A DNA stretch of 38,501 bases from Acidimicrobiaceae bacterium (GTDB lineage: Bacteria; Actinomycetota; Acidimicrobiia; Acidimicrobiales; RAAP-2): contig PMLV01000003.1 of NCBI GenBank assembly GCA_003160635.1, positions 1 to 38,501 on the forward strand, given 5' to 3'. Below are positions 731-26,289 of this stretch, in pieces. Every line of letters starts with the position of its first letter. Within the stretch, counting starts at the first letter, position 1. The translations under genes and the position numbers were made by a program. The notes beneath the pieces are model-generated. The model had not been told where the DNA came from, searched no databases, and worked only from the letters and a program-made list of their open reading frames with translations.

Positions 731-774
731 TCTTCACACGGCTGAGGTCGGAGGTTCGAGTCCTCTAGCGCCCA
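731..774 (+). other. tRNA-Val(CAC) 3' half, probable attachment-site scar
   Basis: The segment contains an anticodon loop reading TTCACAC, a complete T-arm (GGAGG-TTCGAGT-CCTC) and the acceptor 3' strand AGCGCCC followed by discriminator A774. The 5' acceptor strand, D-arm and 5' anticodon stem are absent: the bases before 731 belong to the 113-bp repeat and do not pair. A tRNA copied from the anticodon loop to the 3' end is the usual identity block of tyrosine-integrase attachment sites. It is not a functional tRNA gene. The casposon target duplication begins at its last acceptor base. Confidence 0.75.
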
Positions 775-786
775 CTGTGTAGCCAT
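773..786. repeat. 14-bp target-site duplication, left copy
   Basis: cactgtgtagccat, identical to 20246-20259 in the same orientation. Each copy lies directly outside a terminal inverted repeat. It spans the last acceptor base and discriminator of the tRNA-Val 3' half plus 12 downstream bases. A 14-15 bp duplication at a tRNA 3' end is what is known for the Aciduliprofundum boonei casposon. Confidence 0.85.
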
Positions 787-942
787 ACACCAAGGAAGCC
801 GGGAGAGGGCCGGGCGGCCGGAAGGCGGACACGGGAAGAGGACGGCCGGAAGGGCGGGCCGGGAGCGGGCCGGGGACGAACGGGACAGCGAGACGACGGC
901 GACGGCGACCGCAAGGGAGACCGGCGACCGGCGGGGAGCGAG
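787..942 (+). repeat. Left terminal inverted repeat of the casposon-like element
   Basis: It begins acaccaaggaagccggg and is matched by the reverse complement of 20091-20245. The match is essentially perfect over the outer 45 or so and the inner 80 or so bases, with small substitutions and indels only around 832-860. The plus strand has no T at all from 787 to 949. It is non-coding, with no T-run to suggest an intrinsic terminator. Confidence 0.9.
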
Positions 943-1006
943 GGGGGCCTAGATCGGATCGATCAATGCTTGGATGGACAACGTCCCGCTACGGCTTGCA
1001 ACCGAG

Positions 1007-4000
1007 TTACCAGTCCCTCCCATCGAGAAGCTTGTCGTCATGCTCAGCGTGCCAGCGAATTCGCTCGACTGCAGATTTCTCTAGTGAGCGATAGAACCGC
1101 TCCTCGACAGAGCCACCAGATAGAGCATTCGCAATGGCCCGAGCTTTGTCCCGCTGCTCAACATCGTGGGCGAAGGGCTTGCCTGGAGTGCCCGTGAATG
1201 TGCCGCTAGTCACAGCTCCGTGCATCGAGCTGGCTACTTGTTCTCTGCAGTCCTGGCCCAGCTTGGATGCGACATCCAGGGCACGGCTGACAAATTCCAC
1301 GTTTTCAAATATGAAACTCCGGGGCGCCCTCCGCAGGATCGAGGCAAGGGCCGTCATCTGAGCTTTGCTGGCAGCTCTCAAGGCCCCATCCAACACTGAA
1401 AGGACCGAGGTGTCGAAGTCGTTTGCGATTGCAGCAAAGAGCCGACCACCCGACTCGTGGCGCATCCAAGATGACGGATCCTCAACAAGCCATTCAATTA
1501 CTTCCTTCAGAATGGCGACGAAGTCAGCATGGAACCGCACTTGGAGGGGCTGATGCCATTCGAAGGGCAGAGGGTGATAGGCCAGGGCGAACTCGACATG
1601 TTCCCAGTGATCAATTCTCTCCATCAGGAGGGTGACAAGCTGAGCAGGATTGTCCTTGGATAGGCCCGACAGAAACTCCATGGTCCAATAGGGTTCTATG
1701 GAAGGACATTCGATCAGTTGCTTGAGTATCCCGGCGGTCTCAGGTTCGGCCAACTCGCTCCAGCGCAATGGTCCGAGGCTGGAGAAGCTCTGGAAGACCT
1801 CTTCAGCCACCTCTGGCGAATCTGCGAACCGGACTCGCGTCAACAGCGCTACCGCCGCGGAACGATGGTGAGGGGCAAGTCGCTGAGCAGCGGTTACCAC
1901 CGACTTGCGGACAAAGGGGTCCTCGTCACTGCTAAGTCGGAGGAGGACTTCGAATTCACCGTCGATGAGCGTTGACCGCGACCCTCGATACCATCCCAGA
2001 CTCTGGGCCATTGCGCGACGCACAGCCAGGTCGTCAGTTTCAAGCAGTTCTTGAACAGCGGCCGCTGCATGACCTGGGAGCAACTCAGCTACGCCCGCGA
2101 CAACAATCGCCAAGACTTGGAAAAGGACAGATGAGGGATCGTCAGCCAATTGGGAGGAGATCGCGATCCCAAGCGATGGTCGCCGCTTGACCAAGTTCCA
2201 GATGAGTGGATTGGGGTTGCCCACCCGCCCAAACGCACGAAGTTGTGCACGTAATCGCGTTGTCAGTTGATCGACGATCTCTTCGTCGGAGTACGTCTCG
2301 GCAATCTCCGCCGAGAGACTTTCCAGTCGTCCTTGCCTCTCGGCCTCCATCTCTTGGAAGTCCGCCGTGCGGCCTTCAACGAGTTGGTCCCAGCTGTCAA
2401 AGAGAGCAACAGCCAGCCGAAGGCCCAGGGAGTTGGAGAAACCTTCGAGTACCTCACGGGCAGCATCCCGAGTCCCGAGTTTGGAATACAAATAGTGCCA
2501 ATGAAGAGCGTGCTCAATCGCGACCGCGATGACGGGGTCGACTTGGGTTCCGGAAAGCGTTTCCTTCAGTCGCGAGAATGTGTCCAGGAAATCTGGAGTC
2601 CAAGCTTCAGTTTCCGAATCGGATACTTGCCGACCGAAGAGCCCATGAGGATAGTGAAGGCTTGCTTCGATCAGCTTTGCCGCACGGGCGGCTCGCTGAA
2701 TGTCGGGAGAGACAAGCTCGGTGAAAGCCAGATTGAGAATTCGCTCTCGAAGTGGCCGAACGACAGATGGGTTGATTAGGTAGGGCCGGAATCGAATCGA
2801 GCGACCATCGAAAGAATCCTCGGTTCCTTCGGTCGCCAACATCGGGCCAAGAACATCGAATGGAGATGGGCCGGATCCCTCCGGTTCTTTCAGCCAATCT
2901 TCGACGAGATCGACGAGGGAAATGTTGTAGGCCAAAGGCTTTCCGGCTCCTAAGCTCGCCAGTCCTTGGAGAACACGCAAAGGATGCTCCGGGTGCGGGT
3001 TGGTCTCACGTACGTCGGTGCCCGCGAGTTCCCATAAGAGGTTGGCGGACTCGTGCAGGTGCTCGGGATTGTAGGCAGTGGCTTGAAGGATGCCTGGTAG
3101 CTCGTGTACTACATCGTCGTATGAAGGCGCAACGGACCAGAGCCACGGTTCGTCGTTCTCCTCAAGCACGTCCGTGGGGTTGTCGATGACCCCACGGACG
3201 AGGATCAGACTTCTCCGCGGTTCGAAGTAGGCAACCTTCTGAAGGAGCTTGAGCAAGCTAATCCGACCGAGAATCCCAGCGGACTGAGCCACTTCGTCGA
3301 CCGTGTCCCATAGCCGGTCTGTCAGTTGAGGGGCACCGGGTACGTCATGTCTTATCTGCCAGTCAATTCGACTCGCGTTGATGAAGACGTGCTGAGCCGC
3401 CTCGCCTTCAGCGGATTGCCAGGCTCGCTCGAGAAACCCAGTTGACGCTCCGGACCCCTCGTCGAAACAAGCCTCGCTCAAAACTACGTCGCCGAGCAGG
3501 TCCGGCACGATCCGAAGAGAGCTGCCCCGGCGCAACAGAACTCCCGCATCCTCAAGGGCGCGGAGATGCCGAACTGCCCGATCAAATGGCTCGTCGACCA
3601 ACTTTCCAAGGCTGTTCTGGAATGCGGGGTCGTCAGATCGAAATGGCTGCAATATGCCAAGAGAATCAAGGACCGCTCGACGCAACTCCGAGTTACCTGA
3701 TACCGGGTTGGCTACAACCACGTCTCGAAACTTGCGAAGTACTTCCTTCCGAATCGTTTCCTCGTGATCTAAACATGCTGGATCGAGATCCCCGCGCTTT
3801 ATCAGCGCTCCCGCAACAACGGTGATGAACGGGCAGTCAGCGGTGAGGCGTCCAAGGCGTTCAGCAAGCTGATGTGGCCAGCCTGCACCTAGCGCTTCGG
3901 CAGCCAATGCCTCTGCATCTTGACGGGAGAGGTCGGACAGGTGGAACTGTGGCAGATCGTCGACCCGCAAACCGAGTTGACCCAGTTCAGCGGCGAGGGA

Positions 4001-5119
4001 GTCAAGACCGTAGGGTCGCAGTGCCAAAAGCACCTTGCCATGACCTGCAAGGCGTAACACTTCGGCGACCATCGCCTGTAGGTCGTCCCGGTCATGAGCA
4101 TCATCAATCACAAGCAACAAAGGTTCATTTCGGGGGAGCAACTCGTAATCCTGAGCCCTCAGTTCAGAACCAAGCTTGGCGAATCGAACAGAAGTTGCTC
4201 GACGCTCTAGCGTGCGCCCTACCTCAAGGAGCAAACGACTCTTGCCTATCCCGCCACGACCGACGACGAGCCCGATCCTCTGTGATGGATCATCCACAAA
4301 CGCGAGGACATCTGCCAGCTCATCCGCTCGGCCAACGAGCTGCCAGTCATGCGTGTAGATCAGCCCGGCCGTCAGCGGTAGGAAGAACTCATCAGTAGGC
4401 AACCACGGCCCAGGTTCGGCCACGCCGAGAAATGGCTCCCGCCAACCTGGGAAGAACGTATCGACGATCCTCACGGCTTTGTCGAGCGACAACCCGCGAA
4501 TGGTCCGTGAGATGTCTTCTCCGTCCCAAAGGGTCCAGCCCGGGTATCGCTGCATTTCTTTCCGGGCGGCGGGGCTGGCACTGCGCCGTGACAGGACTAG
4601 GAAATGAGCATCAGCTTCGATGGTGACCTCTCCGACGGCGGCCTTGACCTTCTGGGGACCGAATTCCTTGTGCCGCTTGCATTGGTAGGTCGCCAGGTAA
4701 CGCGAATCTTTTTCGGCCGTGACATCAACGCCGTGCTGCTTGTGTCCCTGACTTCCCAGCCGAGTAACGAGGGCATCCGGGTTCAATTGTTGGCCGATGT
4801 CGGCGACCAGCTCCTCGAACTTGTCGGGGGCAAGTTCCCAAACCGGTAGCACGGTCAACCGAGGGCGCACCGGGCGGGAGATCTGTGGGCGGTCGGCAAG
4901 CAGCGTGTATCCGGCGGCATGGAGGAACTCACCCGGATCCGCTTCAAAGAGAGCGGCAAGCTCGACCACCATCCCCCGGCGAGGACGGGAGCCGCCTTTC
5001 TCCCAACGACTGATCGCCTGTTGGCCGACAGCCCCTCCAAGGCGCAGAGCCAACTCGTCCTGGTCCCAGCCCCGGCGCACTCGCTCCTCTTGGATCAGCC
5101 TGCCGATGGTTAGCTCCAC
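1007..5119 (-). CDS. XRE-HTH / Mrr-like nuclease / STAND NTPase (Avs-like defence candidate)
   Basis: 1370 aa. Residues 1-70 form an XRE-type helix-turn-helix (QQAISRWEKG). Residues 90-230 look like an Mrr-type PD-(D/E)XK nuclease, with GVD (D132) and YQCK (Q146, K148). A STAND P-loop NTPase follows, with Walker A GRGGIGKS at 287-294 and Walker B LLLVIDD at 334-340. The remaining 900 or so residues are helical, with HEAT-like stretches near 1040-1110, as in the sensor arms of STAND proteins. Nuclease-STAND-repeat proteins (the Avs group) recognise phage proteins and then cut DNA; that role is inferred here. The HTH at the N-terminus is unusual and suggests self-regulation through the palindrome at 5131-5172. 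The start is GTG at 5119. It is the last gene leftwards before the TIR and is probably cargo. Confidence 0.8.
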   Translation of the reverse strand: MELTIGRLIQEERVRRGWDQDELALRLGGAVGQQAISRWEKGGSRPRRGMVVELAALFEADPGEFLHAAGYTLLADRPQISRPVRPRLTVLPVWELAPDKFEELVADIGQQLNPDALVTRLGSQGHKQHGVDVTAEKDSRYLATYQCKRHKEFGPQKVKAAVGEVTIEADAHFLVLSRRSASPAARKEMQRYPGWTLWDGEDISRTIRGLSLDKAVRIVDTFFPGWREPFLGVAEPGPWLPTDEFFLPLTAGLIYTHDWQLVGRADELADVLAFVDDPSQRIGLVVGRGGIGKSRLLLEVGRTLERRATSVRFAKLGSELRAQDYELLPRNEPLLLVIDDAHDRDDLQAMVAEVLRLAGHGKVLLALRPYGLDSLAAELGQLGLRVDDLPQFHLSDLSRQDAEALAAEALGAGWPHQLAERLGRLTADCPFITVVAGALIKRGDLDPACLDHEETIRKEVLRKFRDVVVANPVSGNSELRRAVLDSLGILQPFRSDDPAFQNSLGKLVDEPFDRAVRHLRALEDAGVLLRRGSSLRIVPDLLGDVVLSEACFDEGSGASTGFLERAWQSAEGEAAQHVFINASRIDWQIRHDVPGAPQLTDRLWDTVDEVAQSAGILGRISLLKLLQKVAYFEPRRSLILVRGVIDNPTDVLEENDEPWLWSVAPSYDDVVHELPGILQATAYNPEHLHESANLLWELAGTDVRETNPHPEHPLRVLQGLASLGAGKPLAYNISLVDLVEDWLKEPEGSGPSPFDVLGPMLATEGTEDSFDGRSIRFRPYLINPSVVRPLRERILNLAFTELVSPDIQRAARAAKLIEASLHYPHGLFGRQVSDSETEAWTPDFLDTFSRLKETLSGTQVDPVIAVAIEHALHWHYLYSKLGTRDAAREVLEGFSNSLGLRLAVALFDSWDQLVEGRTADFQEMEAERQGRLESLSAEIAETYSDEEIVDQLTTRLRAQLRAFGRVGNPNPLIWNLVKRRPSLGIAISSQLADDPSSVLFQVLAIVVAGVAELLPGHAAAAVQELLETDDLAVRRAMAQSLGWYRGSRSTLIDGEFEVLLRLSSDEDPFVRKSVVTAAQRLAPHHRSAAVALLTRVRFADSPEVAEEVFQSFSSLGPLRWSELAEPETAGILKQLIECPSIEPYWTMEFLSGLSKDNPAQLVTLLMERIDHWEHVEFALAYHPLPFEWHQPLQVRFHADFVAILKEVIEWLVEDPSSWMRHESGGRLFAAIANDFDTSVLSVLDGALRAASKAQMTALASILRRAPRSFIFENVEFVSRALDVASKLGQDCREQVASSMHGAVTSGTFTGTPGKPFAHDVEQRDKARAIANALSGGSVEERFYRSLEKSAVERIRWHAEHDDKLLDGRDW

Positions 5120-5130
5120 GAATCCATCAT

Positions 5131-5172
5131 ACGTACTATCTGCGTGTGAGAGTTCACACGCAGTAGGTACGT
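5131..5172. promoter_or_regulatory. 42-bp palindromic operator candidate
   Basis: Perfect 10-bp arms CTGCGTGTGA (5140-5149) and TCACACGCAG (5154-5163) are separated by GAGT. Further out, ACGTAC (5131-5136) and GTACGT (5167-5172) are exactly symmetric about the same centre; only the three base pairs between the inner and outer arms fail to match. It lies 12-53 bases before the GTG start of the STAND gene, so it should overlap the promoter. It is a likely binding site for that protein's own XRE domain or another element regulator. It could also form an RNA hairpin after cas1, but no U-run follows. Confidence 0.65.
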
Positions 5173-5223
5173 GCCTACCCGACTACGGACGGCGAGCGCT
5201 GTTGCGCTGGTCGATTCGGGTCC

Positions 5224-6906
5224 TCAGGACTCCCTGGTGAGCCGATCGAGTGCGCCCCAATGCATTGGGTGTGGAGTTGTCTTGCCCGTCCTATACGACG
5301 AGGCCGTCGACTTCGTGCAACCCGTGGCAGTCATGATGTCGGCGAGCTTGATCGACGCCAGTTTGGGCTGTATGACTCTTTGGAAGTCCTCCCGGTCCAC
5401 AGTGGTGTCCGCGTTCTCCCGTCGCCACTGCTCCTGCGCCGCTCGAACTTTGGCGATAGCCCTCCCACGGCGCTGGCGAACATCGCGAGCTTGACCCGGC
5501 TGCTTCTCCCAGCAGGTCGAACAACGCAAGTGCCGCGGCCGCTCCAAAGTACTGCCGCAGTCGATACAGGCTGCGAAGTCGAGCGGTCCGCGTGCGACGT
5601 CGGTGCGCGGTGCCTCCGCCCGCGCAACTGCCGAGCGACGACCCCTCTGTATTGCTCCGACCTTTCGGGCCCTGACCACGGCCGCCGCCGCGTGAGCATT
5701 TCGGCCTGTCAGAGGGGTTCGCGGTGACCACTTTCCGGCGACAACCCGGCCGAAGGTGTGGGCCACCTGCTCAGCGTAGGGAGCCACCTCGCGAGCCCAG
5801 ATCGGCATCGTGGCCGCCAATCGCTGGGCCAACGCCGGACCGATGCGCACGCTGCCGTCACTTCGCTCGATGAAGTCCTTCCGCGTGAAGGTGGCCTCCG
5901 CCATGAGATCGATGACGAATCGCTCCACCTGCGGTCGGACTGGCTCGATCACGTCCAGGACGAGCGAGTCCCGCCCGGAGGCGTCCATGTGAAGGACTCC
6001 CAATCCCGGATCGAGGCCCACGGCCACGCACGCCAGACGGGCCTCGATGGCAGCTATCCGATAGAGATAATTCAAGACAGCGTTGGTCGGACGCTCCGCC
6101 TTGCGATTTGAGTTGCCCTTCGTCAGTAACGAACGTCGACCGTCGTAGTGGCACCAATGGGTAGGCACGCGCTTGGTGTCGGCCACTGTGAATCGCGGCG
6201 CTGCGGTGGGATGGTCGACCCAAGCGCCGAAGTAGCACGCGGCAGCGGTCGCTTCGAGCTGCCGGACCTCGTCGATGCTGGCCGCGTCATCGAGCGCGGC
6301 TGCGATGTGGGCAAGCGTCTCGGCGACATCAGGTCGGTCGAGCGATGCGGCGGCGACCGACGCTTGGCCCAGGATCTTCGCGCCAATGAGACCGATGGCG
6401 ATGCTGACAGCCAGCTCATCGGACGCGGTCCCCTGGACTCGCCGGAGGCGAGCGTCGTCGTGACCGTAGGAGCCCGGAGAGAGCACCACCTCTCCGTCCT
6501 GATCGACCACCACGATGGCCACGCCAAGCGCCTGGCACCAGGCGATCGCGTCCAGCGTGATCATTCCTGATTGGGCACCGACCACAAGACGGCGGAGCCC
6601 ACTCCCAGCTTTCGGCCAATTACGCACCCGTCGGTTCCAGCCAAGGCCGTCGCCCACCTGAAGTTGTCCGTTGTAGACGCGGACCCGCACGCCCTCCCCG
6701 AGCACGACCGCCACTGAGGGACCGGCAGGGTCATCGGCGAACCCGGCCTCGATCGCTCCGAGGATGTCGTCGATCTGCTCGGAACGAAGCGCACGACCCT
6801 CCCGAATGACGCGGACCGATGATGCTGAGGGTTTCGACTTCGTACGACCATTGCGGGGCTTCCCCGCCGATACTGCAGCAACGTGGATATTGTTCGTGAC
6901 GCTCAT
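5224..6906 (-). CDS. cas1: Solo Cas1 (casposase candidate) with zinc ribbon and HTH tail
   Basis: 560 aa, longer than CRISPR Cas1 proteins (about 300-340). The catalytic core matches Cas1: LEATAAACYFGAW gives Glu218; NAVLNYLYRIAAIEA is followed by GLDPGLGVLH with His306, then SLVLDVIEPVRP with Asp318 and Glu321. A CX2C...CX2C zinc ribbon follows (Cys447, 450, 462, 465), then a basic stretch and an HTH-like domain at about 515-556 (GCTKSTASSYRTGK). C-terminal HTH domains are known in casposases and help recognise the ends. ATG at 6906 has GGAGGGA nine bases upstream; the frame is open further upstream but that part looks non-native. There is no cas2 and no repeat-spacer array anywhere in the window, so spacer acquisition is unlikely. 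Inferred role: integrase acting on the T-free TIRs and the tRNA 3' end. Confidence 0.9.
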   Translation of the reverse strand: MSVTNNIHVAAVSAGKPRNGRTKSKPSASSVRVIREGRALRSEQIDDILGAIEAGFADDPAGPSVAVVLGEGVRVRVYNGQLQVGDGLGWNRRVRNWPKAGSGLRRLVVGAQSGMITLDAIAWCQALGVAIVVVDQDGEVVLSPGSYGHDDARLRRVQGTASDELAVSIAIGLIGAKILGQASVAAASLDRPDVAETLAHIAAALDDAASIDEVRQLEATAAACYFGAWVDHPTAAPRFTVADTKRVPTHWCHYDGRRSLLTKGNSNRKAERPTNAVLNYLYRIAAIEARLACVAVGLDPGLGVLHMDASGRDSLVLDVIEPVRPQVERFVIDLMAEATFTRKDFIERSDGSVRIGPALAQRLAATMPIWAREVAPYAEQVAHTFGRVVAGKWSPRTPLTGRNAHAAAAVVRARKVGAIQRGRRSAVARAEAPRTDVARGPLDFAACIDCGSTLERPRHLRCSTCWEKQPGQARDVRQRRGRAIAKVRAAQEQWRRENADTTVDREDFQRVIQPKLASIKLADIMTATGCTKSTASSYRTGKTTPHPMHWGALDRLTRES

Positions 6907-6976
6907 GGAGCCAATCCCTCCGTGTGCAGCGCGGGCGGGGCTGCAACCTCGCCCGCGCACTGATTGCCTTGGTGAC

Positions 6977-8077
6977 CTAGTCCTCTGCTTTCTTCGGGTC
7001 CGTCGCGGTCTGTGGCACTTCCTGAATGGATACAAGGGTGGCTCCTTCAGGATGAACGTCGAGCCACTCGCGCAATTGGCGGAGAACCGCATCCGCTTCG
7101 TCCTGGTGAAGGGCAGCAAAGACCGCAAGACCGCCGGGGCCGAGACAAGGGCGCCATTTCTCTGGAAAATCTCTAGCCGCGGAGGTCAACGTACGAAGAA
7201 CCGGAAGCTCTCTGCCCAGAGCCTCACTGGTGAGTGCTAAATCGCGTCGTGCATTCTTGTTGGGAAGGAAAAGCAGCACGGCAGGCGCCAAGAATGCCAA
7301 GCCCAAGTCGTCGCTTATCCGTAGCCGCCGCAAGGTTCTTCCGTACCGAGCCATTATCCTGTGCTTTGGATCAGAACTCTCACGGCCAGTCGCGTCGAAG
7401 TAATCCGAGACAGCCCTCGCGTACTCCATGAGTGTTCGGGAGGTTTTTGCTGCCCAGCGGAGGTCCTGCTGAGAAGAGTCTCTTACGGCCCTGCGTAGTG
7501 CCACCAAGCTCAAGTTCTTCAGAAACGACCGAAGGCGATCCATGTCTCCGGCTTCCTCGTAGTAACCAACCGCCTCGGGTCCGGCAAATCGTTCGACGAC
7601 CAATTCGGCCCAGATCGGGTTCGTCGGCTCTCTGTCGGTGGTGAGGTCGAGCATCGCGTTGCGCACCGACAGATCGATCGCTTGACGCGGACCCAAGAAT
7701 GCAAAGCGCTCTGATCGTCTCAGCGTCGGCTTCTTCGCCCGCTGGAGCATTGGGAGCCACCGATAGACGAAGTGGTCGAACGCGGTCGTGACCCCGTCGT
7801 GTGCGACATCGACGTCGCGGGACATCGCGGAGAGAACTGCCTCATCCAGGCTCGCAGACCTGCTGAGAACGATGGCGAATCGGGCCGCTACTTCGGCTGC
7901 GTTCGGTTGGTATTGGCGTAAATTGCCTCGTCCCTGACGAGGCCCCGGAGGCAACTCGAAGACGTCGGCGGAGCGCCAGCGGACGATTTGGGACCCAGTC
8001 ACCGAGAGATCGGAATGTCCCCACTGAACTAGGAGTTCAGTGGCCTCAGCCGCCACTCTCTCGTCGACTGGAGTCAC
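6977..8077 (-). CDS. Unknown protein with MerR-like N-terminal HTH
   Basis: About 366 aa. The first 60 or so residues (TGSQIVRWRSADVF, PPGPRQGRGNLRQYQP) resemble the winged helix of MerR-type regulators; the remainder is mostly helical and unrecognised. I chose GTG at 8077 because AGGAG lies eight bases before it, whereas GTG at 8086 overlaps that site. It ends 70 bases before cas1, is read in the same direction, and is probably co-transcribed with cas1 and perhaps the STAND gene. It faces the rightward operon across a short divergent gap. A regulator or accessory DNA-binding factor for the transposase is a reasonable inference; no enzymatic motif is visible. Confidence 0.5.
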   Translation of the reverse strand: MTPVDERVAAEATELLVQWGHSDLSVTGSQIVRWRSADVFELPPGPRQGRGNLRQYQPNAAEVAARFAIVLSRSASLDEAVLSAMSRDVDVAHDGVTTAFDHFVYRWLPMLQRAKKPTLRRSERFAFLGPRQAIDLSVRNAMLDLTTDREPTNPIWAELVVERFAGPEAVGYYEEAGDMDRLRSFLKNLSLVALRRAVRDSSQQDLRWAAKTSRTLMEYARAVSDYFDATGRESSDPKHRIMARYGRTLRRLRISDDLGLAFLAPAVLLFLPNKNARRDLALTSEALGRELPVLRTLTSAARDFPEKWRPCLGPGGLAVFAALHQDEADAVLRQLREWLDVHPEGATLVSIQEVPQTATDPKKAED

Positions 8078-8472: not shown

Positions 8473-8475
8473 CGC

Positions 8476-11851: not shown

Positions 11852-13887
11852 GGCTGAACATCGGGGGCGCGCACTCACCCGGCGGGACCGCGTCGCAGCT
11901 CCTGGAGCGCATGGGAGTGCGACCACCGCTGGCCAAGTTCCGGCTTGGAGACGACGAGTTTGCCGCCTGGCTCCGGGCCTTCCACGGAGGTTGGGTCACG
12001 AGCGGGCCACTTGATGGCGTGCCGTTCCCCGCTGTCGACGCCGATGTGCGGAGTGCCTTCCCGGTGATCGCATCACTGCTCGGATGGTGGGACTACACGT
12101 GCGCTCAGCGGTTGCGCCCAGTGGACGTGACCAGAGCGTTCAGGCGTTTCCTCTCGGCGCCCGACCTGATGGCGCGCATGCTCGACCTGGCTACCTGGAG
12201 GCGGTGGGGCCTCACCCGAGTGGTCGTCCGTGCCCAGGGCGAGCCATGGCCGGTCGAGGTGGCCGAATCCAACGGTCCTCGGCTGCATGTGGTGCCCACG
12301 TGGGCCGAGAGCCTGGATGCGACTTGGCTCGATGCCGTGGCGGCATCAGTGCTCGCGGGACGGCAGGTCGAGGTGATCCGGGCCATTCGTCTCGCGCCGC
12401 GGGGGCGCCAGGACGGTCTGTCCACGGTACGCATTCCCGGGTCTCGACTTCACCCAGATGAAGACCCAGCTGTCTCCATGGTGCGACTCCGACGCAAGGC
12501 AATTGCTCAGGGAAACAACCGGCTGGCGTCACTGTTGCGGGTGCTGGTCAATGCCATGGTCTATGGGAATCCGGCACGATTCGACTCGGGTCACCACGGT
12601 CGTGAGAGGCCCGGGCCGTGGTGTTTCCCACCGTTAGCGGCCACGGTGCCGGCGGGTGCTCGGTGCATCCTCGCCATGGTCGAAGCACAGGTGTGGGCCC
12701 GTGGTGGCGTCATTGCGGCCCGTGACACAGACGGACTTTTGCTTGTCGCATCCCGTAGGGGTGGCGATATCCAACTGCCAGACGGCACCAACGCTCACGT
12801 TCTCTCATGGTGCGACACCGACGCTGTACTAGATGGGTTCAACGCACTGGGTCTTTTCCGGGATGGCGGACCGTTCTGGTCGATCAAACGGGAACACCGC
12901 GGACGACCGATACGAGCCGTTGTGTGGGGCCCGAAGCGTCACACCCTGTTCGTCCATAGCCACGGGATCGAGGTGGTCGCATCCACTGAGCACGTGCTTG
13001 GGGCTCTCGCCGCTCCACCTGGTACCACCGGGCGCCGGGACGACGGGCGCCATCTATGGACCGAAGATGTCGCTCGGGTCCTTGCCGGTGTTGCCAGCGG
13101 TGAGTGCGACAAGCCGATCGTGCCGACGTTCCGGTGGGAACGGAACAGTCCCGACTTTCCCGCATTGCGGCGATTGTCACTCTCCGGTCCCAAAGCGCTC
13201 CGACAGATGCCCGCAGCGTTCGGCTTCCGACCCTTCGCCCGAGTGATCGAAGGCCAATCCGCCTACCCGCGGCATGACGCCCGGCCGGTCACACCCGATC
13301 CCGGTGGTGAGTTGGTTCGCTGGAGGGAACTTCCGTGGCGTGATGCGCATGGCGGACAGGCGGTAGGGGTCAGTACCGACCCGCTGGACCTTGACAGGGT
13401 CATCCTCGACAGCCTCCGCGCGAGGTCGGTCGCATGGTCCCGGCCAACCGGCCAGGTGCACCGAGAGGCGGTCGTCGTGGACCCACTGCTCGTGCGCCCG
13501 GTCGGAAGGGCTGGTGGTGCGTTCACCGGAGGGAGTCCACAAGCCGTGCGCTCGACGGTGGATATCGGCTCTGTCCTTATGACGGCGGCGAGGCTCCTTG
13601 GCGTACCGCGGTTCGCATCCCTGACCGGTTTGCCCGAAAGGACCGTCCGGGCTCTCGCAAGTGGGCGTCGGCCACGTGGCTCGACAGTAAGAAAGGTGTG
13701 GCTGGCGATTTCCGGGCACTTCGGATCCGACCCACTCCCGGGCCTGCTCGACCTCGCGGAAGGCGACGGTCCTTGTCGCTGCGTGTATCCAGGGTGCGAC
13801 GTGGCAGCCCGGATCCGATCCCACACCTGCTCGGAGCGCCATCGAAAGGCACTGGCTCGGCTAACCCAGGGGGTGCCAGGTGCCTAG
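11842..13887 (+). CDS. polB: Divergent family B DNA polymerase with C-terminal HTH and zinc finger
   Basis: 681 aa. Motif A is DVRSAFP (68-74), motif B RVLVNAMVYGN (233-243, with Arg for the usual Lys), and motif C RDTDG with Asp295 and Asp297. After these comes a GPKRHTLF segment matching the K-R-Y region. All catalytic Asp residues are present, so activity is expected. The C-terminus carries an HTH-like stretch (SLTGLPERTVRALASGR) and a CX1CX4C...CSERH zinc finger, additions that may tie it to element ends. Bacterial chromosomes do not use PolB for replication; casposons and other self-synthesizing transposons do. ATG at 11842 overlaps the exonuclease-like gene by 10 bases, and the next gene starts before its TAG. 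Confidence 0.85.
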   Translation: MGVGLNIGGAHSPGGTASQLLERMGVRPPLAKFRLGDDEFAAWLRAFHGGWVTSGPLDGVPFPAVDADVRSAFPVIASLLGWWDYTCAQRLRPVDVTRAFRRFLSAPDLMARMLDLATWRRWGLTRVVVRAQGEPWPVEVAESNGPRLHVVPTWAESLDATWLDAVAASVLAGRQVEVIRAIRLAPRGRQDGLSTVRIPGSRLHPDEDPAVSMVRLRRKAIAQGNNRLASLLRVLVNAMVYGNPARFDSGHHGRERPGPWCFPPLAATVPAGARCILAMVEAQVWARGGVIAARDTDGLLLVASRRGGDIQLPDGTNAHVLSWCDTDAVLDGFNALGLFRDGGPFWSIKREHRGRPIRAVVWGPKRHTLFVHSHGIEVVASTEHVLGALAAPPGTTGRRDDGRHLWTEDVARVLAGVASGECDKPIVPTFRWERNSPDFPALRRLSLSGPKALRQMPAAFGFRPFARVIEGQSAYPRHDARPVTPDPGGELVRWRELPWRDAHGGQAVGVSTDPLDLDRVILDSLRARSVAWSRPTGQVHREAVVVDPLLVRPVGRAGGAFTGGSPQAVRSTVDIGSVLMTAARLLGVPRFASLTGLPERTVRALASGRRPRGSTVRKVWLAISGHFGSDPLPGLLDLAEGDGPCRCVYPGCDVAARIRSHTCSERHRKALARLTQGVPGA

Positions 13888-14308
13888 CGTGCGACGTCCT
13901 GGGTACTACGTGGCCGCCCCGGTGGCAGTGCTGCTCCGTCCGGAGTGGCCCGAGCGGGTGCGACAGATTCAAAAGCTGGTCGGTCCTGTGTGGGACCCCG
14001 CAGTGCTCTTTAGCTCATCCGCGGACTGGTTAGACGGGTGGCCCGACCTCCTCTCGATGGTTGCTGGTCTCGTGCTGGTGCCGGACGACGACGGGAGCAT
14101 CGGGGCCGGATGTCTCCGGGAGATCGCCGACGTGCTCGGCCGTGATCGCCCAGTTTGGCTCTACGACCGCCTACAGCTCGTGCCATGGGGAGGCGTCGTC
14201 ATAAGCACCGTTTCGGTGCCGTCCAGGTTCCGAGTTGCGGAAGTCAACGTGGGCCACCCGACACCGGGCCGTCGCACGCCCCGAGGGAGCAAGAAGGAGA
14301 CCCTGTAG
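13880..14308 (+). CDS. Deoxyribosyltransferase-like small protein
   Basis: 142 aa. The central pattern GLVLVPDDDGSIGAGCLREI followed by VLGRDRPVWLYD resembles the Rossmann-like nucleoside 2-deoxyribosyltransferase and related fold (D-D/G-x-G-x3-E-I, then a strand with P-V). It might act on nucleotides or simply bind them. GTG at 13880 overlaps the polB stop, and its TAG overlaps the GTG of the next gene. Such folds occur in phage nucleotide metabolism and in NAD-signal defence; nothing here decides between them. Confidence 0.4.
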   Translation: MPSVRRPGYYVAAPVAVLLRPEWPERVRQIQKLVGPVWDPAVLFSSSADWLDGWPDLLSMVAGLVLVPDDDGSIGAGCLREIADVLGRDRPVWLYDRLQLVPWGGVVISTVSVPSRFRVAEVNVGHPTPGRRTPRGSKKETL

Positions 14309-14652
14309 TGACCCATGGGACCCGGAGCGCCTACAACCGGGGCTGCCGGTGCGAGGCTTGCCGGGAGGCCAGCCGCCTCGCCCGCGCTCGTCAGCGAGAT
14401 GCGGTCCGGATTCGCAGAGCTGGTCGAGACACCGAAGCCGATGCCATCGATGTCGCATCGCCGTGGGGTTTGGTCGTCATCCTGGGTGGTGGGGCCGTGT
14501 GGTGCCTCTGGCAAGCCAGGCAAATCCCACAGGACGACGATCCTGTCCATGCTGCAGCACGACGTCGCTGGATTGTGGCCGGGCTCTTGTTCGCGGGCTT
14601 CGCCCTTGCCTTGGCATGCCTAGCTGGCGGTGAGGACGCCGATCCCGTCTGA
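14308..14652 (+). CDS. Small Cys-rich motif protein with two membrane segments
   Basis: 114 aa. It opens with HGTRSAYNRGCRCEACREA, a short CxC-x2-C module that I associate with actinobacterial phage and mobile-element proteins. It then has two likely transmembrane helices (WGLVVILGGGAVWCLW and IVAGLLFAGFALALACLAG) separated by a short loop, and an acidic end. GTG at 14308 overlaps the preceding TAG. A membrane protein inside a replication/defence operon could be an effector or an anchor; this is inference only. Confidence 0.5.
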   Translation: MTHGTRSAYNRGCRCEACREASRLARARQRDAVRIRRAGRDTEADAIDVASPWGLVVILGGGAVWCLWQARQIPQDDDPVHAAARRRWIVAGLLFAGFALALACLAGGEDADPV

Positions 14653-14706
14653 CGGGGCTACCAAGCTCGCTGTCTTGTCGCGCCTGGGGGTCACCCATGC
14701 GCGATC

Positions 14707-17700
14707 GTGGTCGCCGTGGGGGACCTAGACAGTCTGATCCGACGGCTCGATCCTGACGAATACCGGCGGGGGAAGCAGTTCGAACGAATCGTCGAATGGT
14801 TCCTCGCCCACGCTCCCGAGTACGAGACGCAGCTGCGCAAGGTCTGGCTTTGGGACGACTGGCCAGACCGCCCCTCCCAGGACCTGGGCATCGACCTCGT
14901 TGCCGAAGCACGTGGCGGTGACCTGTGGGCGATCCAGGCGAAGGCCTACGGACCCGATTCCTCCGTCACGAAGCGGGACATGGATTCATTCCTGTCAGCC
15001 TCGGGAAGCCGGCGTTTCTCATATCGGCTGTTGGTGGCAACCACCGATCGGGTCGCGGTCAACGCCCGAAAGACCATGGAGCAACAGGCGATCCCCGTGG
15101 GAACGCTGCTGCGCTCCGATCTTGCCGCGTCGGGCCTCAATTGGCCCGTCTCCCCCAGCCACCTCGTCGCTCCCAGGCCGCCGAGGAAGAGGCTACGGCC
15201 CGACCAACGCGAGGCCGTCCGAGATGTTTTGGCAGGCTTCAAGAGGTCCGAACGCGGCCAGATGATCCGTGCGTGCGGCACCGGCAAGACCCTGGCGGCA
15301 CTTGGCGTGCACGAACAACTCGGTGCCAAACGCACCCTGGTCCTCGTTCCGTCGCTGTCGCTCCTCTCTCAGACGCTTCGGGAATGGACGGCGAACGCCA
15401 AAGAAGAATTCGAGTATTTGGCGGTGTGCTCCGACGAAACAGTGGCTGATCCCGACGCCCCAGTCGCTTTCACCCACGACCTAGGTGTCCCCGTCACCAC
15501 CGATGCCACCAAGGTTGCCGAGTTCTTGGGTCGGCGGGGACAGAGAGTGATCTTTTCGACCTATCAGTCATCACCCCAAATCGCTGTGGCGTATCGCAAG
15601 CACCACAAGCCACCGGCCCTGGATCTAGCTATCTGTGATGAGGCGCACCGGTGTGCGGGCCCGGTGAATAGCGACTTCGCCACGATCCTTGACCCGAACA
15701 AGATCCGTGCGAAGCGTCGGCTCTTCATGACAGCCACCCCTCGGTACTTCACCGGACGGATCATCCGTCAGGCGAAGGAGGCCGATTTCGAGATCGCGTC
15801 TATGGACAATGAAGGCACCTTCGGTCCGGTCTTCCACCGCCTCACGTTCGCCCAGGCCATTGATCAGGAACTGCTCTCGGACTACCGGGTGGTGATTGTT
15901 GGCGTAGATGACGCCACTTACAAGGAATGGGCCGAAGACGGGACGTACGTTACCCGCGACGGGGCCAAGATTACCGATGCTCGGACGCTCGCCGGTGAGA
16001 TCGGACTGGCCAAGGCGATGCGCCGGTATGACCTTCGGCGCGTGATCACCTTCCACAGCCGTGTCGACACGGCTCGGCACTTCAGCAACGAACTCCCCGA
16101 CGTCATTGCGTGGATGCCATCGAACCAGCGGCCGACCGGCAGAATCCAAGCCGACTACGTCTCTGGACAAATGCCCACGGGCGAACGCAGACGACGCCTG
16201 AGCCGCCTCGCGAATCCGCAGGCTCGCGAACGGTCGCTGCTCTCCAATGCTCGTTGCCTCGCTGAGGGTGTCGATGTGCCAACACTCGATGGGGTGGCGT
16301 TCGTCGATCCTCGCCGCTCTGAGATCGACATCGTCCAGGCCGTCGGACGTGCCATCCGTCTCGCTCCCGATAAGGAACTCGGGACCATCATCCTGCCGGT
16401 CTTCATCGACTCTGAGGGCGACGCCGACGAGGTGCTCGATCAGTCGGTATTCAAGCCGATCTGGGATGTCCTCAAGGCACTGCGCTCCCATGATGAGGAA
16501 CTCGCCGAGCAGCTGGATACCTTGCGGACCGCTCGGGGCCGAACTCGAACGTCTGGGCGCCTGCCGTCGAAGATCGTCATAGATCTCCCCGCCCATGTTG
16601 GGGTCGAGTTCGCCGACCAGTTTGAGGCGCGACTCGTTGATGCGACTACCACATCATGGGAGTTTTGGTTTGGACTGCTCCAGCGTTTCGTTGAACTCAT
16701 GGGCCATGCCCGCGTGCCATCTGACTACAACGATGGCGATTACCGACTCGGACGGTGGGTTGTTAAGCAGCGGGTGGACTACTGGAACGAGCGGCTTGCC
16801 GCCGACCGGGCGATGCGTCTCGACGCGTTCGTCGGCTGGACCTGGGATGCGCGTGCAGATAGCTGGGAGAAAGGCTTTGACCTCTTGTCCCATTTCGTTG
16901 ACCGCGAGGGCCATGCACGTGTGCCGGATGACTGGGTGGTCGATAGGTTCCAACTTGGATCGTGGGTAGGTGTCCAACGGCGTGCTCACCTCAGCGGAAC
17001 CCTTGACCCTGAGAGAACCAGGCGCCTGAGTGAACTATCCGGTTGGTCTTGGGATCTACTCAGCGATCAGTGGGACGAGGCCTACAGCTCGTTACAGAGA
17101 TTCTCTGCGCGCGAGGGCCACACACGAGTTCCTCAAGGTTGGAGGGAGGGTGATCTCCGGCTCGGATCCTGGGTCGCCGTACAACGAAGGAGATATGACA
17201 AAGACTCGTTAGATCCGGAGCGATGTATCCGTTTGGAATCACTACCTGGCTGGTCCTGGCATCCCTGGGCTGACCGGTGGGATGAACGCCACGCCCTCTT
17301 GAAGCGATTCGTGAAGGGCGAGGGTCATGCACGCGTACCTCAAGGTTTCATGGTCGGCCACGTGAAGCTTGGCGGTTGGGTTATCGAGCAGCGGACCAAC
17401 TACTCAAAGGGTTCACTCGATCCCGAAAGAGTGCAAACGTTGGAGCTACTCCCCGGCTGGTCGTGGGAACCATTCAGCGATCAGTGGGAGGAGTACTGCT
17501 CCGCACTTGAAGGTTTCGTCTCGAGAGAAGGACACGCTCGGGTACCTCGAGGATGGAGGGAAGGTGATCTCCGGCTTGGAAGTTGGGTGGGTAGACAGCG
17601 TTCTGCGTACGCCAAAGGGACCATGTCTCCTGACAAAGCCCGACGCCTCGGATCGCTTCCAAACTGGTCCTGGGATCCATTCACTGAACAATGGGAGCAG

Positions 17701-18528
17701 GGGTATGGCGTCCTCCAGACGTTTGTCTCCCGCGAGGGACACGCGCGAGTGCCCCATCATTGGGTGGAAGACCAATTCAGGCTCGGGTCATGGGTAACCA
17801 AGCAACGGCAGACCCATGCAAAGGGTTCTCTCGATACCAACCGATGCTGCCGGGTGGAGGCATTACCCGGTTGGTCCTGGGATCCGCTCAGCGATCAGTG
17901 GGAGCAATACTTCATCACACTCGAACGCTTTGTCGCTCGGGAAGGCCATGCCCGCGTGACCCAAAGTTGGTCGGAGGACGGACTCAAGCTCGGGTCTTGG
18001 AGTGCGACGCAGCGGATGTCCTACGCCAAGGGTTCCCTGGACCCGGCAAAGGCCGAGCGCCTACGGGCTCTCCCCGGTTGGTCCTGGGATCCTCGAACGC
18101 AGCGTTGGGAAGCGGGATACGAAACACTTGTTGATTTTGCAGCCCGCCACGGGCACGCAAACGTGCCTCAAAAGTGGATAGAGGGCCACTTCAATTTGGG
18201 CCACTGGGTAGCCGTCCAAAGGCGGTTTCACTTTGCAGGATCCCTGGATCGAGACCGAGCTCGCCGCTTGGAGGCAGTCCCCGGTTGGTCTTGGGATCCG
18301 CTTAGCGATCAGTGGGACCAGCATTTCGCCGCACTCGAACGCTTCGCCGAGCGCGAGGGTCACGCACTTGTTCCGGCCAAACACATAGAAGGTGGGTTCA
18401 AGGTGGGTTCATGGGTTAGAAACCAACGAACTGCCTACGAGAAAGGCGTGCTCGATTCGCAGAGGGTTAAGAGGCTCGCAGGAACTCAGGGATGGACGTG
18501 GAGACAACGAGCAGCACGTTCACAATGA
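14707..18528 (+). CDS. Mrr-type nuclease / DEAH helicase with nine helicase-associated repeats
   Basis: 1273 aa. Residues 15-150 look like an Mrr/PD-(D/E)XK nuclease (GID with D63, then IQAK with Q77 and K79). A superfamily 2 helicase follows: ACGTGKT at 189-195 as motif I, ICDEAHR as motif II, FMTATPRYF as motif III, and AVGRAIRL as motif VI. From about residue 650 there are nine tandem helicase-associated repeats of about 69 residues. Proteins of this layout resemble stand-alone type I/III-like restriction or anti-plasmid helicases; the target is unknown. It might serve defence or element maintenance. GTG at 14707 is used, and a GTG at 14716 is also possible; no strong ribosome site is seen. 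It comes 55 bases after the previous gene. Confidence 0.8.
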   Translation: MVAVGDLDSLIRRLDPDEYRRGKQFERIVEWFLAHAPEYETQLRKVWLWDDWPDRPSQDLGIDLVAEARGGDLWAIQAKAYGPDSSVTKRDMDSFLSASGSRRFSYRLLVATTDRVAVNARKTMEQQAIPVGTLLRSDLAASGLNWPVSPSHLVAPRPPRKRLRPDQREAVRDVLAGFKRSERGQMIRACGTGKTLAALGVHEQLGAKRTLVLVPSLSLLSQTLREWTANAKEEFEYLAVCSDETVADPDAPVAFTHDLGVPVTTDATKVAEFLGRRGQRVIFSTYQSSPQIAVAYRKHHKPPALDLAICDEAHRCAGPVNSDFATILDPNKIRAKRRLFMTATPRYFTGRIIRQAKEADFEIASMDNEGTFGPVFHRLTFAQAIDQELLSDYRVVIVGVDDATYKEWAEDGTYVTRDGAKITDARTLAGEIGLAKAMRRYDLRRVITFHSRVDTARHFSNELPDVIAWMPSNQRPTGRIQADYVSGQMPTGERRRRLSRLANPQARERSLLSNARCLAEGVDVPTLDGVAFVDPRRSEIDIVQAVGRAIRLAPDKELGTIILPVFIDSEGDADEVLDQSVFKPIWDVLKALRSHDEELAEQLDTLRTARGRTRTSGRLPSKIVIDLPAHVGVEFADQFEARLVDATTTSWEFWFGLLQRFVELMGHARVPSDYNDGDYRLGRWVVKQRVDYWNERLAADRAMRLDAFVGWTWDARADSWEKGFDLLSHFVDREGHARVPDDWVVDRFQLGSWVGVQRRAHLSGTLDPERTRRLSELSGWSWDLLSDQWDEAYSSLQRFSAREGHTRVPQGWREGDLRLGSWVAVQRRRYDKDSLDPERCIRLESLPGWSWHPWADRWDERHALLKRFVKGEGHARVPQGFMVGHVKLGGWVIEQRTNYSKGSLDPERVQTLELLPGWSWEPFSDQWEEYCSALEGFVSREGHARVPRGWREGDLRLGSWVGRQRSAYAKGTMSPDKARRLGSLPNWSWDPFTEQWEQGYGVLQTFVSREGHARVPHHWVEDQFRLGSWVTKQRQTHAKGSLDTNRCCRVEALPGWSWDPLSDQWEQYFITLERFVAREGHARVTQSWSEDGLKLGSWSATQRMSYAKGSLDPAKAERLRALPGWSWDPRTQRWEAGYETLVDFAARHGHANVPQKWIEGHFNLGHWVAVQRRFHFAGSLDRDRARRLEAVPGWSWDPLSDQWDQHFAALERFAEREGHALVPAKHIEGGFKVGSWVRNQRTAYEKGVLDSQRVKRLAGTQGWTWRQRAARSQ
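16654..18513 (+). repeat. Nine tandem helicase-associated (HA) repeats, about 207 nt each
   Basis: Each unit has a W near its start, then F..REGHARVP, RLGSWV..QR, and ends in LPGWSWDP. The units diverge at nucleotide level but keep the core residues, so they are in-frame protein repeats, not a DNA microsatellite. The HA domain usually occurs once to a few times per protein; nine is high. Confidence 0.85.
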
Positions 18529-18688
18529 GTTCACGTCAAAGTGTGGTGACGGAACAAGCACGTGTGGCAATGAGCCAGTGTTTCACCAAGCCCGATCTCC
18601 GCCGGTCGCCGGTCATACCGTTTCAGCTGTGGCCCGGGCGATGCCGCCCAGACCCTCGTAGGCTGGTCACCTACGTCTTCGGAGGACT

Positions 18689-19702
18689 ATGGACCTCGCA
18701 CCATTCAACTTCGATCGCCGACGAGAGGTTGCTGTCGTCGTCGGCGCAGGCGCTACCAGGGGTGCCCACTTCGTTACTCCCGGGACGGTGTGCAAGCCTC
18801 CGCTAGATAGTGACTTCTTCACACTTCTTCGTTCAAGTGCATTGAACAATTCCGATGTCCGACGGCTCCTCGACTTTGTGTCCGAGGAGTTCGGTGGTCT
18901 TCAGGTCGGCATGGAGACGTTCTACTCGCAGGCCTATCACTACGATCAATTCATCCATGACGTCCCCGCGGGTGGGAAGGGTCGTCGAAAGAAGTACGAG
19001 TGGAATCTCGCCTACTTTCGACGTGCTCTTCCTCTCCTCTTTGCCAAGAGTCTCAGCGGCAATGAGTGCGCCTTCCATGCAGCTCTGGCTACAGCTGTAA
19101 GCCCCGGAGATACTTTTATCTCGTTCAATTACGACTGCCTTCTCGACCGAGCTCTGGCACGGTTCGGCGGTCGCCGCTGGCGGCCGTTGGAGGGATACGG
19201 CTATCCGGTGTCCGGAAGTACGCAGGGTTGGGACGACCAATCCGGAAGCGGTCGCCCGTATAAGACATCAATTGGTCTCCTCAAGCCTCATGGGTCATTG
19301 AATTGGGTAATGACAGATGACGCTCTGACCCTACGAGCAGACGAGTACGCGGCGCGCTCGGAGCACGAACTTGTGATCGTGCCACCGCTCTGGCAAAAGT
19401 CATTTGACTCTGAGCCCTATCAAACAATTTGGAAGGAAACCCGTCGGATTCTGTCCCGAACAAAGGCATTGTTTGTGATCGGCTATTCATTGCCCGAGAC
19501 AGACGTCTACACCCAGGCGACCCTGCGGATGGATGTGGGCCCACTCGATTTTCTCTGTATCGTCAATCCGGACGAGGACGCTCACAGACGAGTCTTGCGA
19601 ACTCTGCGATCCTCAGTTACTACAACCACACATGTCGTGGAATTTGCGCGACTCGCCGATTTGGCAGCGCTCTTGCCTCCCGTGGCGCTCGGTGGGTTGT
19701 GA
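18689..19702 (+). CDS. SIR2-like NADase/defence protein
   Basis: 337 aa. VAVVVGAGAT near the N-terminus is the nucleotide-binding loop, FISFNYDCLLDRA the second conserved block, GLLKPHGSLNW the third and ALFVIGYSLPETD the fourth, as in the SIR2-like group found in many anti-phage systems. Known members hydrolyse NAD+ to stop phage growth; that activity is inferred here. GGAGG lies three bases before the ATG at 18689, and a 160-bp gap separates it from the helicase gene, so it may have its own promoter. Its TGA overlaps the GTG of a small beta-repeat gene, suggesting a two-gene unit. Confidence 0.75.
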   Translation: MDLAPFNFDRRREVAVVVGAGATRGAHFVTPGTVCKPPLDSDFFTLLRSSALNNSDVRRLLDFVSEEFGGLQVGMETFYSQAYHYDQFIHDVPAGGKGRRKKYEWNLAYFRRALPLLFAKSLSGNECAFHAALATAVSPGDTFISFNYDCLLDRALARFGGRRWRPLEGYGYPVSGSTQGWDDQSGSGRPYKTSIGLLKPHGSLNWVMTDDALTLRADEYAARSEHELVIVPPLWQKSFDSEPYQTIWKETRRILSRTKALFVIGYSLPETDVYTQATLRMDVGPLDFLCIVNPDEDAHRRVLRTLRSSVTTTTHVVEFARLADLAALLPPVALGGL

Positions 19703-20064
19703 ACGCCTCGGTCCGTCGAGCCGTCGCCTATATCGCCGGACGAGCGGTCAGCGGGCGTCGTGCATCCTCGGCATACGACTTCTCATCCGGGAAATACACG
19801 AACTTCAGCGGCGAGGTTTCGGATTCAAAGGTAGCGGTCTACGACTTCGATGCGGGCTGCCACGTCTCCGGAAGCCGGAGGGGAGATCGGTACTCGCTGT
19901 ATCACTACGGCATCAGCGGCCATATCGATCTATCAGTTAAGCCGAACGGAACGTTCTCAGGATATGACTACACGTCCGCCGCTCACTTTAGCGGCAAGGT
20001 CACTGGAAGATCGATAAGCCTCTACGACCACGGCTCCGGCGAGTACTTCAATTATTCGATTTGA
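19699..20064 (+). CDS. Beta-repeat partner protein of the SIR2-like gene
   Basis: 121 aa. It is built of short repeated strands around a Y-D-[FY/H]-x-S-G motif: SSAYDFSSGKYTNFSG, VAVYDFDAGCHVSG, YSLYHYGISGHIDL, SGYDYTSAAHFSG, ISLYDHGSGEYFNYSI. This predicts a beta-sheet or beta-roll. I know similar conserved hypothetical proteins but not a function. GTG at 19699 overlaps the SIR2-like stop, so the two are likely made together; it may be the sensor, inhibitor or scaffold. It is the last gene before the right TIR. Confidence 0.6.
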   Translation: MNASVRRAVAYIAGRAVSGRRASSAYDFSSGKYTNFSGEVSDSKVAVYDFDAGCHVSGSRRGDRYSLYHYGISGHIDLSVKPNGTFSGYDYTSAAHFSGKVTGRSISLYDHGSGEYFNYSI

Positions 20065-20090
20065 GCAGTACCAAGCTCCCCCAACTCCCT

Positions 20091-20245
20091 CTCGCTCCCC
20101 GCCGGTCGCCGGTCTCCCTTGCGGTCGCCGTCGCCGTCGTCTCGCTGTCCCGTCGTCCCCGGCCCGCTCCCGGCCCGCTCTCCCGGCCGTTGTCCCTTCT
20201 TGTCCGCCTTCCGGCCGCCCGGCCCTCTCCCGGCTTCCTTGGTGT
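20091..20245 (-). repeat. Right terminal inverted repeat of the casposon-like element
   Basis: Reverse complement of the left repeat at 787-942. The outermost bases are again acacc when read inward. The plus strand has no A from 20085 to 20246, mirroring the T-free left end. It starts about 26 bases after the last cargo gene's stop. Confidence 0.9.
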
Positions 20246-20259
20246 CACTGTGTAGCCAT
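20246..20259. repeat. 14-bp target-site duplication, right copy
   Basis: cactgtgtagccat, identical to 773-786. The outer neighbours differ (gcccccat follows here), so identity is confined to the 14 bases, as expected for a target duplication. Confidence 0.85.
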
Positions 20260-25956: not shown

Positions 25957-25968
25957 CGGGTGGCTCAG

Positions 25969-26285: not shown

Positions 26286-26289
26286 AGGT

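Follow-up and report, generated by a model that had tools for sequence, protein, structure and literature searches.

Does the genome of an acidimicrobial actinobacterium hold a complete casposon, and into what did that element insert? The question is raised by a 38,501-nt stretch of DNA (hereafter the window) from an Acidimicrobiaceae bacterium (GCA_003160635.1, contig PMLV01000003.1, positions 1 to 38,501, forward strand), in which an initial annotation had proposed a casposon-like element. The analysis was computational, and all coordinates are those of the whole window. The segment in question is 19.5 kb long, carries 14-bp direct repeats at both ends, and is very probably a complete bacterial casposon, likely inserted by its own Cas1 beside the 3' end of a tRNA-Val relic.

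The two copies of the target-site duplication (TSD), CACTGTGTAGCCAT, lie on the forward strand at 773-786 and 20246-20259. They are exact direct repeats, identical at 14 of 14 positions as the initial annotation had read them, and the terminal inverted repeats (TIRs) begin at the very next base inside both. Alignment of the left TIR (787-946, +, 160 nt) with the reverse complement of the right TIR (20087-20245, -, 159 nt) gave 93% identity over 160 columns; the inverted repeats are thus present as described, and their length, originally put at about 155 bp, is refined to 160 and 159 nt. A script that scored exact direct repeats flanking Cas1 for inverted repeats just inside them gave the 773/20246 pair a score of 45, the runner-up in the window reaching 10.5. 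The published median TSD length for casposons is 15 nt, against 14 bp here. Among the enclosed genes that had been named, Cas1, SSB and an AAA_25 ATPase are confirmed by Pfam, PolB is recognised from motifs and a predicted fold, and the HNH-like gene is weakly supported. Cas1, PolB, the TIRs, the TSD, the lack of any recombinase or transposase domain in 14 element open reading frames (ORFs) scanned against Pfam, and the boundary test given below all support the interpretation of the segment as a casposon.

The left TSD adjoins the 3' half of a tRNA-Val(CAC) gene (732-775, +), which we take as the insertion target. This relic lacks its 5' half, and its 44 nt are 100% identical to tRNA 3' ends in related genomes. 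ARAGORN called no tRNA in the window and called tRNA-Val(CAC) at the matching loci of related genomes (L020-L022). Within the relic, the T-loop motif GGTTCGAGTCC (753-763, +) has the core TCGAGTC, which ends 10 nt before the TSD, and the TSD itself covers the final 3 nt of the tRNA match and 11 nt beyond. The casposase of A. boonei is reported to require TCAAATC about 8 bp upstream of its own TSD (PMC6614799).

A ruler for the boundary was provided by the right flank, where an insertion sequence (IS) end and a transposase fragment are found (20269-20603, +). This IS is presumably IS481-like, and its copy at L164 has a 463-codon open frame whose start is 74% identical to the window fragment over 61 residues. 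We searched the 172 genomes of the host's family for a T-loop motif followed by the IS end, with 24-40 nt allowed between them. The pattern occurs at 6 places in 6 of these genomes, at different tRNAs (L163-L168) and always with 31-32 nt, and the reversed pattern had no match in the same genomes. In silico removal of 787-20259 leaves 32 nt between the T-loop motif and the IS end. This falls within the spacing seen at all 6 related sites, so that by this measure the end points are off by no more than one base, in agreement with the proposal that the pre-insertion site can be rebuilt by this deletion. The casposon was therefore probably inserted into a site that already held both the tRNA relic and the IS. 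The IS, for its part, resembles a tRNA-end-specific IS, being fixed at 31-32 nt from T-loop motifs. The joined flanks matched 158 of the 172 family genomes, the host's own included, and the matches listed were mostly tRNA ends. Two of them, in G492 and G460, span the junction; they were considered as empty sites and rejected, since they are tRNA-plus-IS arrangements at other places.

Insertion at a tRNA 3' half is also what would be expected of a genomic island put there by a tyrosine integrase, in which case the direct repeats would be attachment (att) sites and the inverted repeats incidental. A second tRNA relic followed by a truncated integrase-like start (named by eye) lies at 25928-26290, in keeping with this explanation. 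However, the 14 Pfam-scanned ORFs contain no integrase domain, the nearest approach being one weak match to a 75-aa PHROG; the TSD overlaps the tRNA match by just those 3 nt and otherwise consists of 11 nt downstream of it; the 160-nt TIRs abut the TSD exactly; and three Cas1-bearing relatives have the same architecture at different tRNAs or at none. We consider an integrase-borne island highly improbable.

The predicted casposase is the Cas1 protein itself (560 aa; 5224-6906, -; PF01867, E 4.6e-35), which has a Cys4 zinc-binding-like and helix-turn-helix (HTH)-like C-terminal region. Residues E218, H306, D318 and E321 are invariant in a 29-row alignment and were mapped by eye onto the catalytic residues, which in E. 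coli Cas1 are given as E141, H208, D218 and D221 (PMC9939771). C447, C450, C462 and C465 are invariant in the same alignment. The tail HTH was read by eye, and an HTH_31 domain is precomputed for 2 of the 120 homologues listed (P0034 and P0094). No relative of this Cas1 was found in IMG/VR. Matches in plasmids number 24 rows; the 20 listed cover less than a third of the query, and most are annotated as CRISPR-type Cas1.

The comparison of Cas1 with known casposases that the initial annotation had suggested was made in an unrooted maximum likelihood tree of 69 rows and 405 columns. Its references were archaeal Methanosarcina-type casposases and CRISPR-type Cas1, rows identified as family 1, 3 or 4 being absent. 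The rows include 12 of the 120 listed archaeal homologues, 12 of the 120 listed homologues of the window protein, and 17 'CRISPR-type' rows picked by score and length rather than by arrays at their loci; fragments (L057-L060, L096, L126, L132), same-locus duplicates and low-scoring loci (L003, L005-L007, L009-L011, L031, L115, L124, L135, L136) were left out. Forty rows, the window included, fall on one side of a 99/98 branch; of these, 12 are database proteins, for the most part without a name, and the other 28 come from actinobacterial genomes, that of the window among them. The 12 archaeal casposases form a separate set (100/100), as do the 17 CRISPR-type rows (100/97). By this tree the window Cas1 is in a clade apart from both, a separate clade whose meaning is bounded by those two reference groups.

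Because Cas1 is the CRISPR adaptation enzyme, one might also see here the remnant of a CRISPR-Cas adaptation module caught between repeats. This is hardly credible: there is no CRISPR-like array among the 20 largest of the 52 repeat families in the window and no Cas2 among the 18 window ORFs scanned, while Cas1 falls outside the CRISPR-type set and is the only Cas1 found in the 91%-complete draft genome.

Relatives of the element recur at low frequency. Cas1 relatives with E <= 1e-30 were found in 9 of 172 family genomes and 9 of 397 order genomes, the host's own genome being counted each time. A broader model with E <= 1e-20 detected Cas1 in 23 of 396 phylum genomes and 11 of 395 class genomes, of which loci 14 and 2, respectively, are CRISPR-type in the Cas1 tree. 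Element boundaries were sought on 20 contigs, namely 18 of the 22 Cas1 contigs (those of G391, G431 C183, G420 and G350 C187 were left out) and the host contigs C92 and C285 around placeholder intervals. Four of the 20 hold a complete element; the other 16 lack a TIR/TSD pair, and many of them are only 3-10 kb long. Besides that of the window, the complete elements are three, of 18-20 kb and with TSDs of 15-16 bp, in two related genomes, G451 and G021, the latter a member of the host's family. The element on G451 C19 (19.9 kb, TSD 15 bp) stands directly after an intact tRNA-Leu(TAA), that on G021 C61 (19.5 kb, TSD 15-16 bp) at a tRNA 3' relic, and that on G021 C66 (18.2 kb, TSD 16 bp) at a site with no tRNA. 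On two further contigs, G445 C29 and G311 C154, an intact tRNA-Val(CAC) is found roughly 2 kb away from Cas1, and the far end of the element is outside the contig. The insertion geometry across the group is a T-loop core, 10-14 nt, a TSD of 14-16 bp and then the TIR. Many of the 21 other Cas1 contigs are short; 6 of them carry a homologue of PolB, 6 one of the HNH-like gene and 4 one of SSB.

Remnants were also observed. In G468 C10 (L096) and G127 C86 (L060), Cas1 genes of the group are broken into several frames and represent decaying relatives. On G459 C4, at about 90,470 (L148), a solitary TIR-like end lies shortly after a degenerate tRNA-Val half and is preceded by flank of the type seen at 611-772; no casposon gene was detected within about 60 kb around it (phmmer, E 1e-4), and it is apparently a solo casposon end.

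The replication genes of the element are divergent, and its polymerase is split. A PolB exonuclease-like domain occupies a separate ORF (10823-11851, +) in which the ExoI, ExoII and ExoIII motifs are lost, and this ORF overlaps by 10 nt that of the polymerase domain (681 aa; 11842-13887, +), which ends in a C-terminus read by eye as HTH-like and Cys-rich. The polymerase part is unrecognised by Pfam and NCBIfam, and none of 26 PolB homologues matches a Pfam polymerase family. Motifs A and C are present and the predicted fold is that of a B-family polymerase, on which basis the element is predicted to encode a divergent B-family DNA polymerase. Motif C reads RDTDG in the window and FCDTDS in L029 and P0145. 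The combination of a motif-less exonuclease and a split polymerase recurs in other elements and is therefore not a local lesion; it would be an unusual enzyme to assay. The predicted fold is closer to the phi29/His1 type. PHROG 1907 (the phi29/PRD1 family) matches 3 of the 26 rows, with a best value of 2.5e-6 against 1.6e-7 for E. coli Pol II itself, and hhalign of the profile against single sequences places E. coli Pol II (91%, 1e-6) ahead of PRD1 (75%, 2.6e-5). Assignment to the protein-primed PolBs was considered and not adopted; we leave it undecided because fold and profile comparison disagree. No terminal protein was identified, and a phage search with the polymerase gave one match, at chance level. 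The polymerase of the A. boonei casposon belongs to a PolB_CDTDS cluster, for which kinship with both types is reported (PMC7544198).

Next to these genes lie a RepA-like AAA_25 ATPase (9224-10348, +; E 3.1e-27), SSB (10449-10907, +; PF00436, E 2e-21, scanned from 10455, the start being that of the ORF) and the HNH-like endonuclease (8853-9227, +; CxxC..DH..CxxC). The last of these has no Pfam match; it has weak matches to PHROG HNH families (E 0.02-0.4) and homologues on the 6 contigs given above. Two small ORFs follow the polymerase: one at 13880-14308 (+), common to four other contigs (G444, G311 C154, G021 C61 and C285 of the host genome, G000), and one at 14155-14652 (+), common to C285 and, partly, C92 of the host. 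Directly upstream of cas1, a 369-aa protein (6977-8086, -) has no confident family match, with a MerR-like HTH suspected by eye only. None of the 21 other Cas1 contigs holds a homologue of it, and in two relatives other proteins of about 300 aa occupy its position.

The remaining genes are defence-type cargo. They encode a 1370-aa protein with HTH, Mrr-type nuclease, STAND-like NTPase and HEAT parts by Pfam scan (1007-5119, -); a 1273-aa protein with, by the same scan, an Mrr_cat_2 nuclease, an SF2 helicase and nine helicase-associated repeats (14707-18528, +), which resembles the front of type IIG restriction enzymes; and a SIR2-like protein identified by domain scan (18689-19702, +). All three are predicted to protect the host against phages. 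The other complete elements carry a type ISP-like enzyme and a methylase (G451), D12 and N6/N4 methylases with a weak HipA-like match (G021 C61), and ResIII with an N6/N4 methylase (G021 C66), so that restriction or defence-type domains are found in all four. Casposon genes already on record include methyltransferases, a restriction endonuclease and three Sir2-like proteins (PMC4046053), so that the defence-type cargo strengthens a known pattern and is not in itself a discovery.

The TIR also recurs within the host genome. When up to 3 mismatches were allowed, its start was matched 11 times, against 3 times for a control, and 6 of the 11 are 3-mismatch matches outside the loci described here. 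On C92 a copy 85% identical over 155 columns follows the 3' end of another tRNA, and the distance from T-loop to repeat is 23 nt, just as in the window; a relative of the Mrr-helicase gene lies alongside, broken into two frames. C92 was also weighed as a possible non-autonomous casposon, but it has no right TIR, and a second tRNA relic has a fragment of orf14155, in inverted orientation, next to it; we therefore call it a truncated copy. The copy on C285 (78% over 74 columns) is accompanied by remnants of PolB, orf13880 and orf14155, with a T-loop motif 21 nt away. C92, C285 and a bare end on C266 look like truncated copies, which suggests that the family inserted several times in this genome; a second strain could also be their source, because the genome is 8% contaminated. 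Unrelated dispersed copies of the inverted repeats had been named at the outset as the finding that would tell against the element: C92 and C285 mostly favour it, and C266, C302 and C99 do not.

Several findings weigh against the reading of the segment as a complete, tRNA-targeted casposon carrying defence genes, and are gathered here. The assembly is in draft form and probably a metagenome-assembled genome, with 342 contigs, a completeness of 91% and a contamination of 8%. The bare TIR end on C266 has no tRNA motif, and the matches on C302 and C99 are short, GC-rich and of doubtful meaning. One of the four complete elements is not at a tRNA, and homologues of the RepA-like, Mrr-STAND and SIR2 genes are on none of the 21 other Cas1 contigs. 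The search of related genomes for an empty site, proposed by the initial annotation, returned no orthologous empty locus among the matches listed, and for this reason the boundary test rests on the IS spacing. The defence role of the cargo is predicted from domain names, and the count of four in four is a raw one. A 123-aa segment of orf14155 matches a 75-aa PHROG labelled integrase (E 2e-6); it was set aside as a recombinase, the same segment also matching HNH families. Finally, with a TIR divergence of 7%, the insertion is perhaps not a very recent one.

This divergence, the decay of the exonuclease domain and the truncated look of the other TIR-bearing loci in the genome would all be accounted for if the boundaries were real and the casposon dead, with its genes retained by the host as defences. 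We take this seriously but judge it unlikely, as the TSD copies are identical, the Cas1, Pol, SSB and RepA ORFs are intact with the Cas1 catalytic residues invariant, and the motif-less exonuclease and split polymerase recur in other elements.

On the preferred reading, a casposon inserted by its own Cas1, we infer from sequence that the element is mobile and that Cas1 catalyses integration of its ends. Cas1 would bind the element ends and recognise the T-loop motif that lies 10 nt before the point of integration, its zinc-binding-like and HTH-like tail probably helping in target recognition by analogy with the A. boonei casposase and its tRNA-Pro leader motif. It would then join the two ends to the target with a stagger of 14 bp, and the TSD would arise as the gaps are filled. 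Copying of the excised element is predicted to fall to the split PolB together with SSB and the RepA-like ATPase. Since none of the three exonuclease motifs survives, proofreading is predicted to be lacking. Phage defence of the host by the cargo is predicted to pay for carriage of the element.

Around the element the DNA shows other traces of mobility. The left flank, 611-772, is repetitive and recurs elsewhere, partly without the tRNA half (at 27993-28110 in the window, in G459 and in G460). Within it, 611-727 forms an 82% direct repeat with 27993-28110, 27.4 kb apart. G459 and G460 have this repeat too, next to tRNA halves, and it is probably the end of another mobile element. The second tRNA 3'-half-like relic, GGTTCGAATCC, lies on the reverse strand in 25928-26290, before the truncated tyrosine-integrase-like start, and an IS3-type transposase pair (24800-25956) adjoins it. 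Outside the casposon, an ArdC-N and IrrE-like peptidase protein (26718-27614, -) is an antirestriction-type gene.

The locus matters in that bacterial casposons are few in the literature searched and this actinobacterial group has readable boundaries. Its insertion geometry matches the biochemistry of an archaeal casposase, so that one can now test whether the casposases of both domains inherited tRNA-end recognition from their ancestor, a point relevant to the origin of CRISPR-leader recognition by Cas1. Recurrent cargo, in four of four complete elements, would tie a Cas1 lineage to the carriage of immune genes. Only tentatively, and with somewhat more doubt than belief, do we suggest a fifth, actinobacterial family of tRNA-end-homing casposons with a split, non-proofreading polymerase of phi29/His1-like fold, serving as vehicles for phage-defence islands. 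If so, a relative of Cas1 moves immune genes outside CRISPR.

How does the element compare with known systems? Four casposon families are recognised (PMC10359463, PMC9939771). The scarcity of bacterial cases claimed by the initial annotation holds in the literature searched, although this actinobacterial example is not the first, casposons including one in Streptomyces albulus having been described in 2014 (Krupovic et al., PMC4046053). A broad casposon survey, unpublished, is mentioned in a 2023 paper (PMC9966878), and none of the papers searched has both 'casposon' and 'Acidimicrobi'. The bacterial members of family 3 are given as StrAlb-C1 (from S. albulus), HenMar-C1, NitAL212-C1 and AceAut-C1 (PMC4046053). 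The window element resembles them, as that source describes them, in its bacterial host, and in combining Cas1 and PolB with TIRs and a TSD; its weakly supported HNH-like gene and the zinc-binding-like and HTH-like tail on Cas1 (the HTH here by eye) may be further points of likeness, to the HNH-type gene of the family and to the tail in AceAut-C1; zinc-binding and HTH domains are fused to Cas1 in two of the four family 3 casposons. In contrast to family 3 as there described, it has SSB and a RepA-like ATPase, its PolB is split with a motif-less exonuclease part, and its group inserts at tRNA 3' ends, a preference reported for five euryarchaeal casposons. With family 2 (A. boonei, Methanosarcina; PMC6614799, PMC10359463) it shares, according to these papers, a TSD of 14-15 bp, probably an HNH gene (here weakly supported), HTH-like tails on Cas1 and PolB, and a tRNA 3' target with an upstream T-loop motif (TCAAATC at about 8 bp in A. 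boonei, TCGAGTC at 10 bp here). It differs in that family 2 elements have archaeal hosts and are smaller, at 6-16 kb (PMC4046053), and in that its Cas1 does not group with the Methanosarcina-type proteins, the two lying in different tree sets (100/100 and 99/98). As to family 1 and the protein-primed PolBs of phi29, His1 and tectiviruses, the profile comparison favours E. coli Pol II over PRD1 and the predicted fold favours the phi29/His1 type.

Pipolins are self-synthesizing elements with PolB, and Tn7-like transposons carry defence cargo beside conserved sites (PMC8649781). Unlike either, the window element has no tyrosine integrase and no Tns proteins that we could find in it, Cas1 being the only recombinase candidate. 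We regard the element as a casposon variant, set apart by the group of its host, by homing to tRNA ends in bacteria, by a split polymerase whose exonuclease part is motif-less, and by defence-type cargo that recurs.

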